Origin: Chryseobacterium sp. C-71
GTDB taxonomy: Bacteria; Bacteroidota; Bacteroidia; Flavobacteriales; Weeksellaceae
Direction of reading: 5' to 3'
Length of the DNA: 64,000 bases
Assembly (NCBI RefSeq): GCF_020911865.1
Contig: NZ_CP087131.1
Location: 1,674,001 to 1,738,000, forward strand
The notes under the pieces are model-generated. The model ran no database searches and had not been told where the DNA came from. It saw nothing but the letters and a program-made list of their open reading frames with translations. Below, in pieces: positions 5,901 to 9,985 of the stretch. Numbering within the stretch: the stretch's first letter is position 1; each line of letters starts with the position of its first letter. The position numbers were made by a program, and so were the translations under genes.

Positions 5901-6002
5901 GAACCACTTCGTGGTTCTGTAAAATTCCGCCAAATATACATCACCTTCTTATTGTCCATGGGTTTCACCCACGGCTATTAATATTGAACCACTTCGTGGT
6001 TC
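5901..6002. repeat. Twin palindromes flanking a third hairpin (REP-like cluster)
   Basis: The palindrome gaaccacttcgtggttc occurs at 5901-5917 and again at 5986-6002, both preceded by att(g). Between them, ccatgggtttcacccacgg (about 5957-5975) forms another hairpin. No ORF crosses the cluster. The 5839-6095 gap holds nothing else recognisable. Confidence 0.7.
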
Positions 6003-6095: not shown

Positions 6096-6103
6096 TATAT
6101 TTG
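6096..6103 (+). promoter_or_regulatory. Putative promoter -7 box (TATATTTG) of the riboswitch operon
   Basis: It matches the Bacteroidota -7 consensus TAnnTTTG and lies 12 bases upstream of the first riboswitch base, so transcription would start just before the aptamer. No clear -33 TTG was found. Confidence 0.55.
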
Positions 6104-6115
6104 TTCAGTAATAAT

Positions 6116-6183
6116 ACACGGGGTGCCGCAAGGCTGAGATCATACCCGATAACCTGATTTGGATAATGCCAACGTAGGGATGT
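6116..6183 (+). promoter_or_regulatory. TPP riboswitch (THI element)
   Basis: The aptamer is recognised from its conserved blocks in order: cggggtgc, then ctgaga (6134-6139), then acccg (6145-6148 region), then acctgatttggataatgcc and cgtaggga. The outer P1 stem is closed by aca at 6116-6118 with tgt at 6181-6183. The class binds thiamine pyrophosphate and represses downstream genes. The next 78 bases to the first start codon hold a hairpin rather than an obvious U-tract terminator. The operon downstream is therefore expected to respond to thiamine status. Confidence 0.95.
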
Positions 6184-6209
6184 CTGCTTAAAATATTTTC
6201 ATTTTATGC

Positions 6210-6251
6210 TTTATTCGTTCGCATGCTTATCTGTGGTCTGAACTGAATAAA
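6210..6251 (+). promoter_or_regulatory. Hairpin between riboswitch and start codon (possible expression platform)
   Basis: The arm tttattc (6210-6216) pairs with gaataaa (6245-6251), and gttc (6217-6220) pairs with gaac (6240-6243) across a one-base bulge. The hairpin ends 10 bases before the ATG and has no U-run, so a translational effect is more plausible than termination. This is inferred by eye, without folding. Confidence 0.35.
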
Positions 6252-6261
6252 TCAACATAAA

Positions 6262-6984
6262 ATGGAAGTAACAAAGTATTCCGGAGAACTTATCCCACAA
6301 CAAGACAAAAACTGGCAAGGAAGACCCGAATGGTTTTTCAATAGAGAACATACCGACACCTACGAATTATGGTATGAAGGCAGATACAAACGAGCCGAAA
6401 TCTGGCAGAAAAAAGTAATGGAACAGCTCATTTCCAAAGATCAACGAGTAAAAACATTATTAGAATTCGGATGTGGTACTACCCGATTTACACGCTGGTG
6501 GAAAAATATCGGGATTGAAGCAACCGGCGGAGACATTTCTCCTCTCATGTTATCACAAGCCGTTCATCTTTTCGAAGGCGATCTGGTGATGGCAGATTCT
6601 CATTTTATGCCTTTTAAAGATCATACGTTCGATTCATTGGCATTCATCACAACATTTGAATATTATAAAGATTCTGTAAAAGTTATTCGGGAGGCAGCCC
6701 GAGTTGCGAAGTACGGAATTGCAATGGGAATGATGAACAGGAACTCCCCAAAGGTCGCAAGAAGAAGAGTGCAACAGCTGTTCGGGAAAAATCCTTTTTA
6801 CGTGACCGCAACTTTCTACACTCCGAAAATGCTGACAGAGATTATCGAAAAAGCTTTAGTCGGAAGAAAATATACAATTGAATGGACATGCACCGGACTT
6901 CCAAAATGGTTTCCTGTACAGCAATGGAACCTTCCGGTAGGCGATTTCTTTGGTTTATACATCCAGCTAAATGATGTGGAATGA
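6262..6984 (+). CDS. Class I SAM-dependent methyltransferase in TPP-riboswitch operon
   Basis: The 240-residue protein has a Rossmann SAM-binding fold: motif I LLEFGCGTTRFTRWW (about residues 67-81), an acidic second strand ATGGDIS (about 92), and a third block DSLAFITTFEYYKD where methyltransferase motif IV lies. The N-terminal part (PEWFFNREHTDTYELWYEGRYKRAE) recalls methyltransferases that act on small metabolites or proteins, but the substrate cannot be read from the sequence. It is the first gene after the riboswitch and overlaps the next gene by 4 bases (ATGA), so the two are probably translationally coupled. A Trm112-like gene in the same operon may encode its activating partner. The link to thiamine metabolism is inferred from regulation alone. 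Confidence 0.8.
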   Translation: MEVTKYSGELIPQQDKNWQGRPEWFFNREHTDTYELWYEGRYKRAEIWQKKVMEQLISKDQRVKTLLEFGCGTTRFTRWWKNIGIEATGGDISPLMLSQAVHLFEGDLVMADSHFMPFKDHTFDSLAFITTFEYYKDSVKVIREAARVAKYGIAMGMMNRNSPKVARRRVQQLFGKNPFYVTATFYTPKMLTEIIEKALVGRKYTIEWTCTGLPKWFPVQQWNLPVGDFFGLYIQLNDVE

Positions 6985-8030
6985 TTGAAACCTTAGGAAA
7001 AATAAATCATTCCCAATTTGAAGATTTCCTGAAACAGCGATGCGGAAAAAAACGTGATGAAGTACGCGTCGGTCCTGAGTTTGGTGTTGATGTCTCCGTA
7101 GTCGATCTGCATGGCGGAAAAGCGATGGCTTTGACGAGTGATCCTCTTTCTTTGATTCCGTCTTTAGGTTTGGAAGAATCGGCTTGGCTGTCAGTTCATC
7201 TTATGGCGAATGATATGGCGACCACAGGCTTCGCACCGACGTTCGGACAGTTTGTTTTAAATCTTCCTGCTCATCTTTCTAAAAATGATTTTGAAATTTA
7301 TTGGAATTACATTCATCAGTTTTGTAAAGATATTGACGTAAGCATTACCGGCGGACACACGGGATTTATCGAAGGTCAAAACTCTACTATTGCAGGTGGC
7401 GGAACTTTTATTACCATTGCTCAGAAAGAAGAAATTTTAGTTTCGAAATATGCAAAACCCGGCGATTCAATTTTAGTGACCAAAACAAGCGCACTTTCAT
7501 CGGTTGCCATTTTAGCAATGAGTTTTCCGGAAACTGTAAAAAATAAAGCAGGGAAAGAATTTTACTATTCAGCATCGGCTTCCTTTTACGAAACCTCATC
7601 ATTGAAAGACGCCCTAACTGCCGTACAAAATAAGAATTCAGGAGTGACTGCGATGCATGATGTAACGGAAGGCGGCGTTTTGGGAGCGATTTACGAACTA
7701 GCCATAGCATCAGGAAATGGAGCAGAAATATTTAATGAAAAACTTCCGATTGGAGAAGTCCAGTCAGAAGTTTGTAATTTGTTTTCGCTAGATCCGAGAT
7801 ATTGCATTGGTGCGGGGTCAATGATCATTACATGTAAAAAAGAGAAGGCTTCGGAGATTATTTCAAGATTGGAGGCAAATCATATTCCATGTACAGAAGT
7901 TGGCGTGATTACCGAAAAATCTGACGGAATTAAATTAATTGAAAACGAACAAGCAACTGATTTAATGTATTTCGAGGAAGACCCTTATTGGAAAGCATTC
8001 TTTAACGCTTATAAAAACGGCTGGAAATAA
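6981..8030 (+). CDS. HypE-like / AIR-synthase-related protein in TPP-riboswitch operon
   Basis: The 349-residue protein belongs to the PurM/HypE/ThiL/SelD ATP-binding fold. Visible family marks are VGPEFGVDVSVVDL (N-terminal), MALTSDPLS, HLMANDMATTGFAP (about residues 73-86), ITGGHTGFIEG (about 120) and the C-terminal half starting at AMHDVTEGGVLGAIYELA (about 215). These fit the HypE-like branch best. The HypE C-terminal Cys that receives the carbamoyl group in hydrogenase maturation is not seen; the protein ends NAYKNGWK. No hydrogenase genes are nearby. Control by a TPP riboswitch suggests an ATP-dependent step on a thiamine intermediate, analogous to ThiL, but that is inference. It shares one base with the next gene. 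Confidence 0.8.
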   Translation: MIETLGKINHSQFEDFLKQRCGKKRDEVRVGPEFGVDVSVVDLHGGKAMALTSDPLSLIPSLGLEESAWLSVHLMANDMATTGFAPTFGQFVLNLPAHLSKNDFEIYWNYIHQFCKDIDVSITGGHTGFIEGQNSTIAGGGTFITIAQKEEILVSKYAKPGDSILVTKTSALSSVAILAMSFPETVKNKAGKEFYYSASASFYETSSLKDALTAVQNKNSGVTAMHDVTEGGVLGAIYELAIASGNGAEIFNEKLPIGEVQSEVCNLFSLDPRYCIGAGSMIITCKKEKASEIISRLEANHIPCTEVGVITEKSDGIKLIENEQATDLMYFEEDPYWKAFFNAYKNGWK

Positions 8031-8659
8031 TGAAAAAGCAAACCATACAATCAGGAATCTATCTGATTATCGATCCTTCGATGGATGAGGAAATTCTTTT
8101 TTCTAAATTGAATTTAATTGTAAAAGAAAAAATATCAGCCATTCAGATCTTGGACAATTTTAAAGAAAATCAGAATATTGAAGAACTGCTTTTAAAAAGT
8201 CATGAGATTACTTCGTCAAATAATATTCCCTTGATCATCAATAATCGCTGGGAATATTTAAATCAAATTCATTTTGATGGAATTCATTTTGATGAAATTC
8301 CTGAAAATTTCATTCAGATTAAAAAAGAGATCCATTGCGATTTCATTACAGGAATTACCTGTAATAATGAACTTTCAACGATTGAATATGCCGAAGAAAA
8401 TCAGTTCGATTATATTTCTTTCTGCTCGATGTTTCCGTCAAAAACCGCAAACAGTTGTGAACTGGTAAATTTTGAGACTGTTCAGAAAGCGAAAAGTATT
8501 TTCAGTGGAAAAATCTTTTTAGCTGGAGGAATTGATTTCAATAATATTAAAAATTTAAGTGAATTAAATTATGACGGAATAGCCGTCGTTTCAGGAATTA
8601 TGAGTGCAGAAAATCCGTCAGAAACCATTAGAAATTACCATCAAAAAATTAAAAAGTAA
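8030..8659 (+). CDS. ThiE-like thiamine-phosphate synthase family protein, divergent
   Basis: The 209-residue TIM-barrel protein resembles ThiE, which joins the HMP pyrophosphate and thiazole phosphate moieties of thiamine. Matching landmarks are IPLIINNRWEYL (about residues 65-76, ThiE has NDR), FDGIHFDE (ThiE GVHLGQ), DYISFCSMFPSKT (about 128, ThiE YIGxGPxFxTxTK) and IFLAGGIDFNNI...GIAVVSGIM (about 165-190). Several positions that hold substrate in true ThiE have changed, including the Asp of NDR, the HLGQ loop and the QLR-K motif. It may be a paralogue or TenI-like protein rather than the main ThiE. The start overlaps the upstream stop by one base. Confidence 0.75.
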   Translation: MKKQTIQSGIYLIIDPSMDEEILFSKLNLIVKEKISAIQILDNFKENQNIEELLLKSHEITSSNNIPLIINNRWEYLNQIHFDGIHFDEIPENFIQIKKEIHCDFITGITCNNELSTIEYAEENQFDYISFCSMFPSKTANSCELVNFETVQKAKSIFSGKIFLAGGIDFNNIKNLSELNYDGIAVVSGIMSAENPSETIRNYHQKIKK

Positions 8660-8662
8660 AAA

Positions 8663-8929
8663 ATGAGAATAAAAACCATAGAAAAACTATGTTGTCCGTT
8701 TGACAAATCAGATTTAGATTTAACCATCATTTCGCAGGATGAAACTGAAAATATTATGGAAGGTTTACTGATCTGCGACGACTGCAAAAGAGTCTTCCCC
8801 ATCATCAGCGGAATTCCGATTATGTCACCCGACGAATACCGTGAATTTAAACTGGAACAACCCGTTTTAGAACGCTGGGAAAAGCATTTGGAAGGAAAAA
8901 AAGTGGAGAATTTCAAACTAATTTCTTAA
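8663..8929 (+). CDS. Trm112-like small zinc protein
   Basis: The 88-residue protein has a zinc-ribbon-like pattern: LCCPFDKSDL near the N-terminus and LICDDCKRVFPIISGIPIM in the middle, followed by a charged tail. This matches the Trm112/YcaR family, in which the C-terminal half of the ribbon ends in YPI-x-GIP. In eukaryotes and archaea, Trm112 binds and activates several SAM methyltransferases. It starts three bases after the ThiE-like gene and closes an operon that begins with a SAM methyltransferase, so a heterodimer with that enzyme is a reasonable guess. Bacterial members have largely unknown roles. Confidence 0.75.
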   Translation: MRIKTIEKLCCPFDKSDLDLTIISQDETENIMEGLLICDDCKRVFPIISGIPIMSPDEYREFKLEQPVLERWEKHLEGKKVENFKLIS

Positions 8930-8989: not shown

Positions 8990-9985
8990 ATGATAAAAAT
9001 AGGCAACATAGAACTGCCGGAATTTCCGCTTTTGCTCGCTCCGATGGAAGATGTAAGTGATCCGCCGTACAGACGACTGTGTAAATTACATGGTGCAGAT
9101 ATGATGTATTCAGAATTTATCTCTTCTGAGGGCTTGATCCGTGATGCGATGAAAAGCAGAAAGAAGCTGGATATCTTCGATTATGAAAGACCTGTAGGAA
9201 TTCAGATTTTTGGAGGTGACGAGGAAGCTATGGCGATGTCTGCAAGAATTGTAGAGACCGTAAACCCTGATTTGGTGGACATCAATTTTGGTTGCCCGGT
9301 AAAAAAAGTGGTTTGCAAAGGTGCCGGAGCCGGAGTTTTGAAAGATGTTGACATGATGGTTCGTCTGACGAAGGCTGTTGTAAGCTCTACAAGTCTTCCT
9401 GTGACGGTGAAAACGCGTTTGGGATGGGACAGCAATTCAATCAATATCGATGAAGTGGCTGAACGTCTTCAGGAAACTGGGATTAAAGCTTTGACGATTC
9501 ATGCAAGAACGCGTGGCCAGATGTATAAAGGTGAAGCCGACTGGGAACATATCTCAAGAATCAAGCAAAACCCGAATATCGAAATTCCTATTTTTGGAAA
9601 CGGTGATATCGATTCGCCTGAAAAAGCCTTAGAATATAAAAATAAATATGCCTGCGACGGAATTATGATCGGCCGTGCTGCGATTGGTTATCCGTGGATT
9701 TTTAATGAGATCAAACATTTCTTTGAAACAGGGGAACATCTCGATGCACCAACAATTTCAGACCGACTTTTAGCTGTACGTCAACACGCTGAATGGAGTG
9801 CAGAATGGAAAGGTGAGAAATTAGGCTTAATCGAAATGAGACAGCATTACAGCAATTACTTCAGAGGGATTCCTCATTTTAAAGATTTCAGAAGAAAGTT
9901 TCTGGAAGTATATTCTTTAGTTGAAATGGATGAGGTGATTAAAGAAACTGAAGGATTTTATGCTGAATATCAGGCACAGGTTTAA
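8990..9985 (+). CDS. dusB: tRNA-dihydrouridine synthase
   Basis: The 331-residue FMN enzyme reduces uridines in tRNA D-loops. Family marks include LLLAPMEDVSDPPYRRLC at the N-terminus, VDINFGCPVKKVVCKGAGAG (about residues 95-115, with the catalytic Cys in the CPVKKV region), VKTRLGWD (about 144), LTIHARTRGQMYKG (about 170) and GNGDI...GIMIGRAAIGYPWIF (about 202-235). Length and order fit the DusB subfamily. Its own promoter lies next to the ATG, so it is probably transcribed separately from the riboswitch operon. A repeat and a hairpin terminator follow it. Confidence 0.93.
   Translation: MIKIGNIELPEFPLLLAPMEDVSDPPYRRLCKLHGADMMYSEFISSEGLIRDAMKSRKKLDIFDYERPVGIQIFGGDEEAMAMSARIVETVNPDLVDINFGCPVKKVVCKGAGAGVLKDVDMMVRLTKAVVSSTSLPVTVKTRLGWDSNSINIDEVAERLQETGIKALTIHARTRGQMYKGEADWEHISRIKQNPNIEIPIFGNGDIDSPEKALEYKNKYACDGIMIGRAAIGYPWIFNEIKHFFETGEHLDAPTISDRLLAVRQHAEWSAEWKGEKLGLIEMRQHYSNYFRGIPHFKDFRRKFLEVYSLVEMDEVIKETEGFYAEYQAQV

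Follow-up and report, generated by a model that had tools for sequence, protein, structure and literature searches.

A TPP-riboswitch-controlled four-gene operon of Bacteroidota as a candidate thiamine-vitamer salvage module

The closest described systems to the locus examined here are the canonical thiamine operon, the enzyme families that share its folds, and the Trm112-activated methyltransferases. In relatives of Chryseobacterium, the canonical operon has the gene order thiC-tenI-thiD-thiE-thiG-thiH-thiF (L068, L070, L073). For ThiE of B. subtilis, we take the residues that hold HMP-PP and Mg to be R59, K61, D93, D112, and K159. In HypE, a C-terminal cysteine is the acceptor of the carbamoyl group. 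The Trm112 partners characterized so far target components of translation, bacterial Trm112 orthologues use Cys and/or Asp as zinc ligands, and the function of the bacterial protein was still unknown as of 2017, according to PMC5372719. The TPP regulon lists in the available portion of PMC3766115 include, from this phylum, Bacteroidaceae only, and Bacteroidota clusters in which no known system for making or importing B1 is present have been reported (PMC10881298).

We analyzed a 64-kb stretch of the Chryseobacterium sp. C-71 genome (the window), in which four genes follow a TPP aptamer. The original prediction knew of no described thiamine pathway using this gene set, and no description of it was found in the available text of the open PMC papers searched.

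Architecture and riboswitch control of the operon

The features of the locus within the window are as follows.

6096..6103, + strand: putative -7 promoter element TATATTTG, read by eye
6109-6197, + strand: TPP riboswitch aptamer (RF00059), 68.5 bits, with the CTGAGA, ACCTGAT, and CGTAGGGA motifs intact
6198..6268, + strand: predicted expression-platform hairpin, in which CATTTTATG right after the aptamer pairs with CATAAAATG
6262-6984, + strand: gene 1, class I SAM methyltransferase, 240 aa (Pfam Methyltransf_11, 55.9 bits, above cut-off)
6981-8030, + strand: gene 2, PurM/AIRS-superfamily protein, 349 aa (Pfam AIRS 36.4 and AIRS_C 78.9 bits, above cut-off)
8030-8659, + strand: gene 3, ThiE-fold protein ("ThiE2"), 209 aa (Pfam TMP-TENI, 97.3 bits, above cut-off)
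8663-8929, + strand: gene 4, Trm112-like zinc-knuckle protein, 88 aa (Pfam Trm112p, 37 bits; cut-off 22)

The open reading frames abut as originally described, with a 4-nt overlap between genes 1 and 2, a 1-nt overlap between genes 2 and 3, and a 3-nt gap between genes 3 and 4. The identical four genes were found in the same order and on the same strand in all 32 distinct Bacteroidota loci examined (the window, L001-L013, L075-L084, L085-L091, and L095, each located via a gene 1 or gene 2 hit), and the set is therefore not a chance association. L092, whose gene set is as in L005, was taken as the same genome and left uncounted. L086, in which the methyltransferase gene is interrupted by an N-gap, was omitted from the methyltransferase invariant count and from the riboswitch counts. 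In the seven neighborhoods listed and read by eye, no further gene recurs beside the operon. Efflux-like genes lie a few kb from the operon at L076 alone.

The aptamer, called unmistakable in the original prediction, scores above the gathering threshold of its covariance model (E = 2.4e-11; gathering score 54.3) and was the sole RF00059 match in the window at the gathering threshold. By strict pattern, the pyrimidine- and pyrophosphate-sensing motifs (CUGAGA; ACCUGAU, CGUAGGGA) are complete in the window, and all three were present in 22 of 33 rows; in rows failing the pattern, the covariance model still detected the aptamer wherever it was run, except at L086. Directly upstream of the operon, the aptamer was found by covariance model in 26/26 distinct loci with readable upstream DNA, a count that includes G069 at 47.8 bits, under the gathering score. 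Among L001-L013, the Rfam model was run on 8 of 13, and L004-L007 and L012 were assessed by motif only. No operon without a riboswitch, the finding that by the original prediction would have removed the link to thiamine, was encountered among the 26, and the original view of the four genes as one TPP-controlled unit tied to thiamine is supported. A TPP riboswitch points strongly to a function in thiamine metabolism.

The CATAAAATG half of the window hairpin contains the gene 1 start codon, and folding of the leader (6198-6270) gave -18 kcal/mol (z = -3.78; 0/200 shuffles equally stable), such that this hairpin is probably the expression platform. Leaders were more stable than shuffles in seven of the eight folded (z from -2.1 to -3.8), with a hairpin and U-run in L008, L009, and L011, and the L013 leader had a stability like that of its shuffles (z = -0.02). 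The element TATATTTG fits what is presumably the Bacteroidota -7 promoter consensus, TAnnTTTG; a start 5-6 nt 3' of it would coincide with the first base of the aptamer.

Characteristics of the encoded proteins

The methyltransferase was found to be the most conserved operon member, with 93 residues invariant across 26 operons, including E68, G70, G72, and D91 of motif I (26/26) and the basic residues R167-R169. Its solved-structure matches include an 18S rRNA guanine-N7 methyltransferase. The structure model was left unused (mean pLDDT 58.1), a low value that probably stems from too uniform an alignment. Distant gene 1 relatives on plasmids (7 records, all <60% identity) and in two haloarchaeal neighborhoods were accompanied by no annotated thiamine or Trm112 gene, and no relative was found on viral contigs. 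In gene 4, C10, C11, D14, C38, and C41 are invariant in 27/27 proteins; the predicted zinc ligands C11, D14, C38, and C41 fit the Cys/Asp pattern of bacterial orthologues. The protein scored 59.5 bits against NCBIfam Trm112_arch, a model of the archaeal subfamily with a cut-off of 77. Its shared operon with gene 1 in 32/32 loci suggests that it is probably an activator of that methyltransferase.

Among solved structures, gene 2 is closest to HypE (profile matches, E = 6e-12). The "HypE-like" label of the original prediction held as sequence similarity but not as an assignment, with 76.9 bits against NCBIfam HypE TIGR02124 (cut-off 251.6), and gene 2 was likewise under the cut-offs of ThiL TIGR01379 (78.7 bits; cut-off 184.15) and SelD. 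The protein ends in NGWK, without a terminal cysteine. Gene 2 is probably an ATP-dependent enzyme.

Gene 3 had been singled out as the only product resembling a thiamine enzyme. The ThiE fold was borne out by the predicted structure (pLDDT 91.8; nearest folds ThiE), but most of the HMP-PP/Mg residues are missing. Alignment to B. subtilis ThiE recovered 0/5 of these residues in the window protein; across the operon proteins, the counterparts of R59, K61, D112, and K159 lack the respective Arg, Lys, Asp, and Lys in 27/27, and the D93 position is Asp in 4/27. Because most of the HMP-PP/Mg-binding residues are absent, gene 3 is probably not an ordinary ThiE or normal TMP synthase. Its score of 98.3 bits missed the NCBIfam thiE TIGR00693 cut-off of 145.1. 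Invariant features include Q39, H86, the GGI loop, and two cysteines, C132 and C143. Public annotation labels gene 3 "thiamine phosphate synthase".

Distribution relative to thiamine synthesis and uptake

The operon was found mainly in genomes that lack a de novo route to thiamine. In the genus sample, the methyltransferase occurred in 8/15 thiC-negative and 0/84 thiC-positive genomes (Fisher test, ignoring relatedness; p = 4e-8), the loci of three of these eight carriers having been examined (G000, G277, G508). The Bacteroidota sample gave 11/193 thiC-negative against 0/103 thiC-positive genomes (Fisher test, ignoring relatedness; p = 0.0098). Weak thiC matches below cut-off in G508 and G323 (167 and 163 bits) were scored as thiC-negative in the family, as was G508 in the genus; the family sample held 18 carriers, for 7 of which only the methyltransferase was seen. 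As 7 of the 15 thiC-negative genus genomes are without the methyltransferase, auxotrophs do not need the operon. No genome in the genus sample held both the operon and the canonical pathway, and outside the genus G322 carries the operon together with a complete canonical thi operon.

Profile searches returned no thiC match in G000 and 10 other carriers, and no full-length thiG in any of the 11 (nothing above 28 bits), compared to full thiG at 349-352 bits in 4/4 congeners without the operon. Partial ThiG matches of 22-27 bits occurred in 6/11 carriers (five exceeding the Pfam cut-off of 23), and matches of the same kind stood alongside full ThiG in the control congeners. A strong ThiD was present in 1/11 carriers, with weaker ThiD-model matches of 26-60 bits in six; we read these partial and weak matches as probable other TIM barrels and kinases. 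Thiamine pyrophosphokinase (TPK) and a canonical ThiL (242-317 bits; cut-off 184) were found in 11/11. The original prediction had suggested a comparison with the presence or absence of canonical thiL, thiE, and thiD and had listed an alternative ThiL/ThiE branch among the possibilities. Strong ThiD is mostly absent, and all 11 carriers keep ThiL, so that gene 2 fills no ThiL gap. With a canonical ThiL in all 11 and gene 2 itself scoring 78.7 bits, an alternative ThiL is unlikely and was rejected. Since ThiL is present in 224/296 genomes, including many thiC-negative genomes without the operon, its retention is not specific to the operon and was dropped as a sign of operon-made TMP.

Riemerella anatipestifer ATCC 11845 is reported to show no growth without vitamin B1 (PMC8383284), and Arenibacter E3M18 proved auxotrophic for B1, at a KS of 1.7e-10 M (PMC12448291). 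We found the operon in an R. anatipestifer strain other than ATCC 11845 (L012), with P0348 named for the species, and genes 2 and 3 in Arenibacter (P0096; P0240), where the link to E3M18 is at genus level. These B1-requiring taxa, together with G322, which holds both systems, disfavor the operon as a full pathway replacement giving prototrophy. A TonB receptor and a PnuC-type transporter in the window's genome carry TPP aptamer-like matches; apart from the operon aptamer, G000 has two TPP matches, both scoring under the gathering threshold. Because a TonB receptor with a weak TPP match is also found in canonical-pathway congeners (L069, L074), such uptake is not specific to carriers.

Candidate functions and comparison with known systems

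Among the readings offered originally, salvage survives best, with the aptamer and the thiC-negative distribution in its favor; a methylated precursor, or a damaged pyrimidine or thiazole, may be involved. We propose, with a probability of about 0.5, that the operon is a TPP-repressed thiamine-vitamer salvage or repair module, mainly of thiamine-auxotrophic Bacteroidota, ending at thiamine phosphate. Falling TPP would switch the operon on, and a thiamine-related compound (a breakdown product or damaged thiamine) would enter the cell, perhaps by way of the PnuC-type transporter and the TonB receptor that carry aptamer-like matches. Its conversion or activation would fall to the Trm112-assisted methyltransferase and to the PurM/HypE-like enzyme, at the expense of ATP in the latter case. 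Binding of pyrimidine and thiazole-phosphate groups has probably been retained by ThiE2, which may then complete thiamine monophosphate through pyrophosphate-independent, cysteine-assisted chemistry, and ThiL would turn this into TPP. We know of no thiamine salvage step in which a methyltransferase with Trm112 would be expected. Our best single guess, itself quite tentative and unlikely to hold as worded, is that methylation makes a quaternary leaving group from an amine such as AmMP, replacing the pyrophosphate of ThiD. Slightly more doubtful is the fuller version, a ThiD-free, pyrophosphate-free TMP route in which the methyltransferase/Trm112 pair would either equip a salvaged pyrimidine with such a leaving group or otherwise prime damaged thiamine, the PurM-like ATP enzyme would prepare or reclose the thiazole part, and the cysteine-bearing ThiE-fold enzyme would complete TMP.

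A thiamine-starvation response unrelated to the structure of thiamine itself is unlikely. Here the methyltransferase-Trm112 pair would methylate RNA, protein, or another cofactor, the set would aid life at low TPP, and the ThiE fold would have been recruited for another phosphate-bearing substrate. The dominance of the methyltransferase in conservation, its basic R167-R169, the 18S rRNA enzyme among its matches, and the translation-related partners of Trm112, the bacterial form being of unknown function in 2017 (PMC5372719), would all suit such a response. The ThiE/TenI-fold gene in all 32 loci and the tracking of the operon with absence of the thiamine pathway argue against it.

Amide activation is known from the PurM superfamily, and the reaction of PurM itself is the closure of a five-membered ring. 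A non-canonical branch supplying either the pyrimidine or the thiazole half of thiamine could employ such a ring closure by the ATP-dependent PurM-like enzyme, with the methyltransferase adding a methyl group and the carriers needing only the other half. Mutual exclusivity of the operon and the canonical pathway within the genus sample and the retention of ThiL in 11/11 carriers point toward this branch. We nevertheless consider it improbable: with thiC, full thiG, and mostly strong thiD absent and ThiE2 without most of the HMP-PP site, the normal coupling step is missing in carriers, and two taxa carrying operon genes need B1.

Less probable still is ordinary salvage, the alternative ThiL/ThiE branch of the original prediction, in which ThiE2 would be a divergent normal TMP synthase, gene 2 would encode an additional ThiL or an HMP-P kinase, and the methyltransferase and Trm112 would be passengers. 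Four of the five HMP-PP/Mg residues are missing in 27/27 proteins and the fifth in 23, genes 3 and 2 are below the thiE and thiL cut-offs, canonical ThiL is already present, and the supposed passenger methyltransferase is the most conserved gene. A role in producing or detoxifying an antivitamin, an analogue of thiamine, is very improbable, even though bacimethrin pathways employ a methyltransferase, because no further gene recurs in the seven neighborhoods and no shared export or analogue-making partner was thus seen.

The locus places four genes, one resembling a thiamine enzyme, under a TPP riboswitch in hosts predicted to be auxotrophic by genome content, and it opens what a bacterial Trm112 pair does to direct testing. 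If the salvage reading is true, B1 cycling models omit an acquisition route. Gene-count surveys could credit auxotrophs with thiE, given the public annotation of gene 3. A ThiD-free route, if true, would add a novel means of building or rebuilding vitamin B1, and a Trm112-type pair would then have a function in cofactor metabolism.

Compared to known systems, the operon shares TPP riboswitch control and a ThiE/TenI-fold gene with the canonical thi operon of Chryseobacterium relatives. However, it is without thiC, thiD, thiG, thiH, and thiF, adds the methyltransferase, the PurM-like protein, and Trm112, and its ThiE2 is without most of the HMP-PP site. Relative to ThiE (EC 2.5.1.3), gene 3 has no R59, K61, D112, or K159 equivalents in 27/27, has D93 in 4/27, and bears two invariant cysteines. 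TenI (thiazole tautomerase) is somewhat further from gene 3 by fold score, and the operon genomes have no ThiG product to tautomerize. Gene 2 resembles the HypE/ThiL/PurM/SelD superfamily in its AIRS and AIRS_C domains, with HypE nearest by profile, but is below the NCBIfam cut-offs of all four; it differs from HypE in having no C-terminal cysteine, and its genome holds a separate canonical ThiL. As in Trm112/methyltransferase systems, a zinc-knuckle protein and a class I methyltransferase are encoded in one operon, the difference being that the pair here stands in a thiamine-regulated bacterial operon. The TPP-controlled uptake genes of Bacteroidota (TonB receptor, PnuC-type) are alike in carrying TPP aptamer-like matches in the same genome, but they encode transport rather than enzymes and also occur in canonical-pathway congeners.

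Layout, control and conservation of the riboswitch operon

In the window, a single Rfam match reached the gathering threshold, a TPP aptamer scoring 68.5 bits against a cut-off of 54.3. The four genes behind it share one strand, and the tight packing noted in the original prediction was confirmed, with overlaps of 4 nt and 1 nt and a gap of 3 nt:

6109-6197, TPP aptamer
6262-6984, same strand as the other genes, gene 1, class I methyltransferase
6981-8030, same strand, gene 2, protein with both AIRS domains (PurM-like)
8030-8659, same strand, gene 3, TMP-TENI protein (ThiE2)
8663-8929, same strand, gene 4, Trm112p protein
8990-9985, next gene, dihydrouridine synthase

The dihydrouridine synthase gene was placed outside the operon unit because it stands behind the operon in closely related Chryseobacterium (loci L001-L007, about 2 kb further on in L006) and in none of L008-L013. 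Since the ligand motifs of the window's aptamer are intact, TPP is the expected ligand. Directly after the aptamer, the start-codon region of gene 1 pairs with a complementary segment in a hairpin more stable than all 200 shuffles (z -3.78), and in the same place the leaders of L008, L009 and L011 carry a hairpin and then a U run, resembling an intrinsic terminator. Among eight leaders folded, seven gave z values of -2.1 to -3.8 and L013 showed no significant structure. Either design would let TPP switch the operon off. It was also noted that a short inverted repeat, GAACCAC-TTC-GTGGTTC, occurs in two copies upstream of the riboswitch (5901-5917 and 5986-6002), possibly as a small repeat element.

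The scan of genome contigs returned 13 loci, from Chryseobacterium, Pedobacter, Rufibacter, Psychroflexus, Riemerella and two metagenome-assembled Bacteroidota. Gene order and upstream riboswitch, both first read from the window, held up across genomes. The four genes stood in order in 13/13 scanned loci, and the aptamer was found in 8/8, 11/11 (carriers, including the window's genome) and 7/8 loci, the match in genome G069 being below the cut-off and the one of eight without an aptamer having an N-gap. Of 296 Bacteroidota genomes sampled, 11 have the methyltransferase, as do 18 of 246 from the window's family. We inspected the loci of all 11 phylum-sample carriers and of 11 of the 18 family carriers, two genomes being common to both sets, and all four genes were present at each, with lowest identities of about 63% (methyltransferase), 40% (PurM-like) and 33% (ThiE2). 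Pairwise identities of the four proteins were correlated over 26 operons (Spearman 0.56-0.90). From the conserved gene set, the aptamers and these correlations, we conclude that the operon is passed on mostly as a unit; its distribution is patchy.

Two loci were out of the ordinary. The operon of L091 (genome G320) looks mosaic, its methyltransferase being 81% identical to the window's, its PurM-like protein 47% and its ThiE2 39%, identities out of line with the other loci. At L086:6986-13421 (G356), an N-gap cuts the operon's methyltransferase, and a small-subunit rRNA whose best match is an archaeal model lies further upstream; most likely this reflects a break in the assembly at an rRNA gene and has no biological meaning.

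Thiamine genes in carriers and non-carriers

We compared 11 carriers of the methyltransferase with four congeners lacking the operon. The thiC gene was present in 0/11 carriers and 4/4 controls, and full thiG was not found in the 11 carriers compared with 4/4 controls at 349-352 bits. Partial thiG-model matches of 22-27 bits occurred in 6/11 carriers, five of them exceeding Pfam's low cut-off of 23, and were also seen in controls. ThiD gave a strong match in one of the 11 (G250, 296 bits) and partial matches of 26-60 bits in six others (controls, 125-140), while TPK and canonical ThiL were found in 11/11. The operon's ThiE-fold gene was the only strong TMP-TENI match in carriers, the others scoring about 20-28 bits. 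Three controls had a canonical riboswitch operon of thiC, tenI-like, thiD, thiE, thiG, thiH and thiF, named by eye with profile support for thiC, thiE and thiG, plus thiD and the tenI-like gene of locus L073.

Without correction for relatedness, the methyltransferase was found in 0/84 genomes with thiC above cut-off and 8/15 without in the genus sample (99 genomes), in 1/96 thiC-positive versus 17/150 thiC-negative genomes across the family, and in 0/103 versus 11/193 in the phylum sample. The sole family exception, G322, has an aptamer-led operon of each kind, the four-gene one (L085) and a full canonical one (L096), and this genome is a useful natural test case holding both thiamine gene sets.

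The window's genome has two further TPP matches (53.2 and 45.6 bits), both below the gathering score, standing before a PnuC-family transporter with a 347-aa gene and before a TonB receptor. At the former (L055:10284-11904, contig C1, about 752-754 kb), behind the 53.2-bit match, the 347-aa gene overlaps the transporter gene and matches no Pfam family at E 0.001; L071, from a congener that has the canonical pathway, shows a similar PnuC-type and partner pair after a similar TPP match. A similar TonB gene likewise lies behind a weak TPP match in congeners with that pathway (L069, L074).

As a separate observation, a ThiC-family protein was encountered directly 3' of a SIR2-STALD gene at L093:4189-6612 (G508) and L094:4042-6428 (G323). 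It scores 192.5 and 185.6 bits to PF01964, far under the thiC equivalog cut-off, and its neighbor matches the Thoeris effector ThsA (PADLOC, 227 and 219 bits). The pair adjoins hsdM and hsdS in L093 and similar-looking genes, by eye, in L094; no TIR (ThsB) gene was seen by eye at either locus. If this is a Thoeris-like system, a ThiC-like protein standing in for ThsB would be unusual. Searching plasmids with the ThiC-like protein returned 377 records, none reaching 60% identity, and the best of them has no annotation.

Published phenotypes were then considered. Riemerella anatipestifer ATCC 11845 is described as not growing without vitamin B1 (PMC8383284); the operon is present in a different strain of this species (L012), and methyltransferase cluster P0348, with 16 members, is named Riemerella anatipestifer. 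Arenibacter E3M18 is reported to be auxotrophic for B1, its half-saturation constant being 1.7e-10 M, and the same paper describes Flavobacteriales B1 auxotrophs as having lost the pathway entirely (PMC12448291). Arenibacter proteins include gene 2 (P0096) and gene 3 (P0240), a link to E3M18 at genus level. The simplest conclusion, with these strains tied to carriers via species or genus, is that carriers do not regain de novo synthesis through the operon.

The four proteins and a possible salvage role

The ThiE2 structure model was confident (pLDDT 91.8), and its nearest solved folds were ThiE and then TenI. At R59, K61, D93, D112 and K159 of Bacillus subtilis ThiE, which we take to be the HMP-PP/Mg-binding positions, the window's protein has L and N (ungapped reading; one aligner gives a gap and D instead), then N, P and A. 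Across 27 operon ThiE2 proteins, no Arg, Lys, Asp or Lys was found at R59, K61, D112 and K159, respectively, and D93 was kept in 4/27. Structure 3o16 is the K159A mutant of B. subtilis ThiE, and the aligned residue is the window's A140. All 27 proteins share Gln39, His86, the GGI loop, Cys132 and Cys143, and 21 have a further cysteine at the C111 position. Judged from these alignments, ThiE2 probably keeps a pocket for a pyrimidine and a thiazole phosphate but has lost most of the pyrophosphate site.

By profile, gene 2 comes nearest to HypE, yet it falls under the HypE, ThiL and SelD cut-offs, and unlike HypE it lacks the C-terminal cysteine. Invariant residues number 93/240 in gene 1 (26 operons) versus 58/349 in gene 2 and 18/209 in gene 3 (27 each). 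SAM motif I is kept in gene 1, and the Cys/Asp zinc ligands in gene 4. Because Trm112 proteins activate methyltransferases, the function of bacterial ones being described as unknown in 2017 (PMC5372719), genes 1 and 4 would likely form a complex.

We give roughly even odds (about 0.5) to the operon salvaging or repairing a thiamine-related compound, because this would explain the TPP control, the near-restriction to thiC-less genomes, and a ThiE fold that has lost most of the HMP-PP site. The retained ThiL fits salvage or repair, though ThiL is too widespread to serve as evidence. Among known marine vitamers, HMP, AmMP, FAMP, HET and cHET (PMC10881298) are candidate substrates. By analogy with PurM, one possible scheme is that the ring of an opened, N-formylated thiamine is closed at the expense of ATP; in another, the best single guess though of low probability, methylation would supply a leaving group instead of pyrophosphate. 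Neither covers all four genes equally well. No description of the four-gene combination and its setting was found in the open literature searched; its component families and the riboswitch control of thiamine genes are well known.
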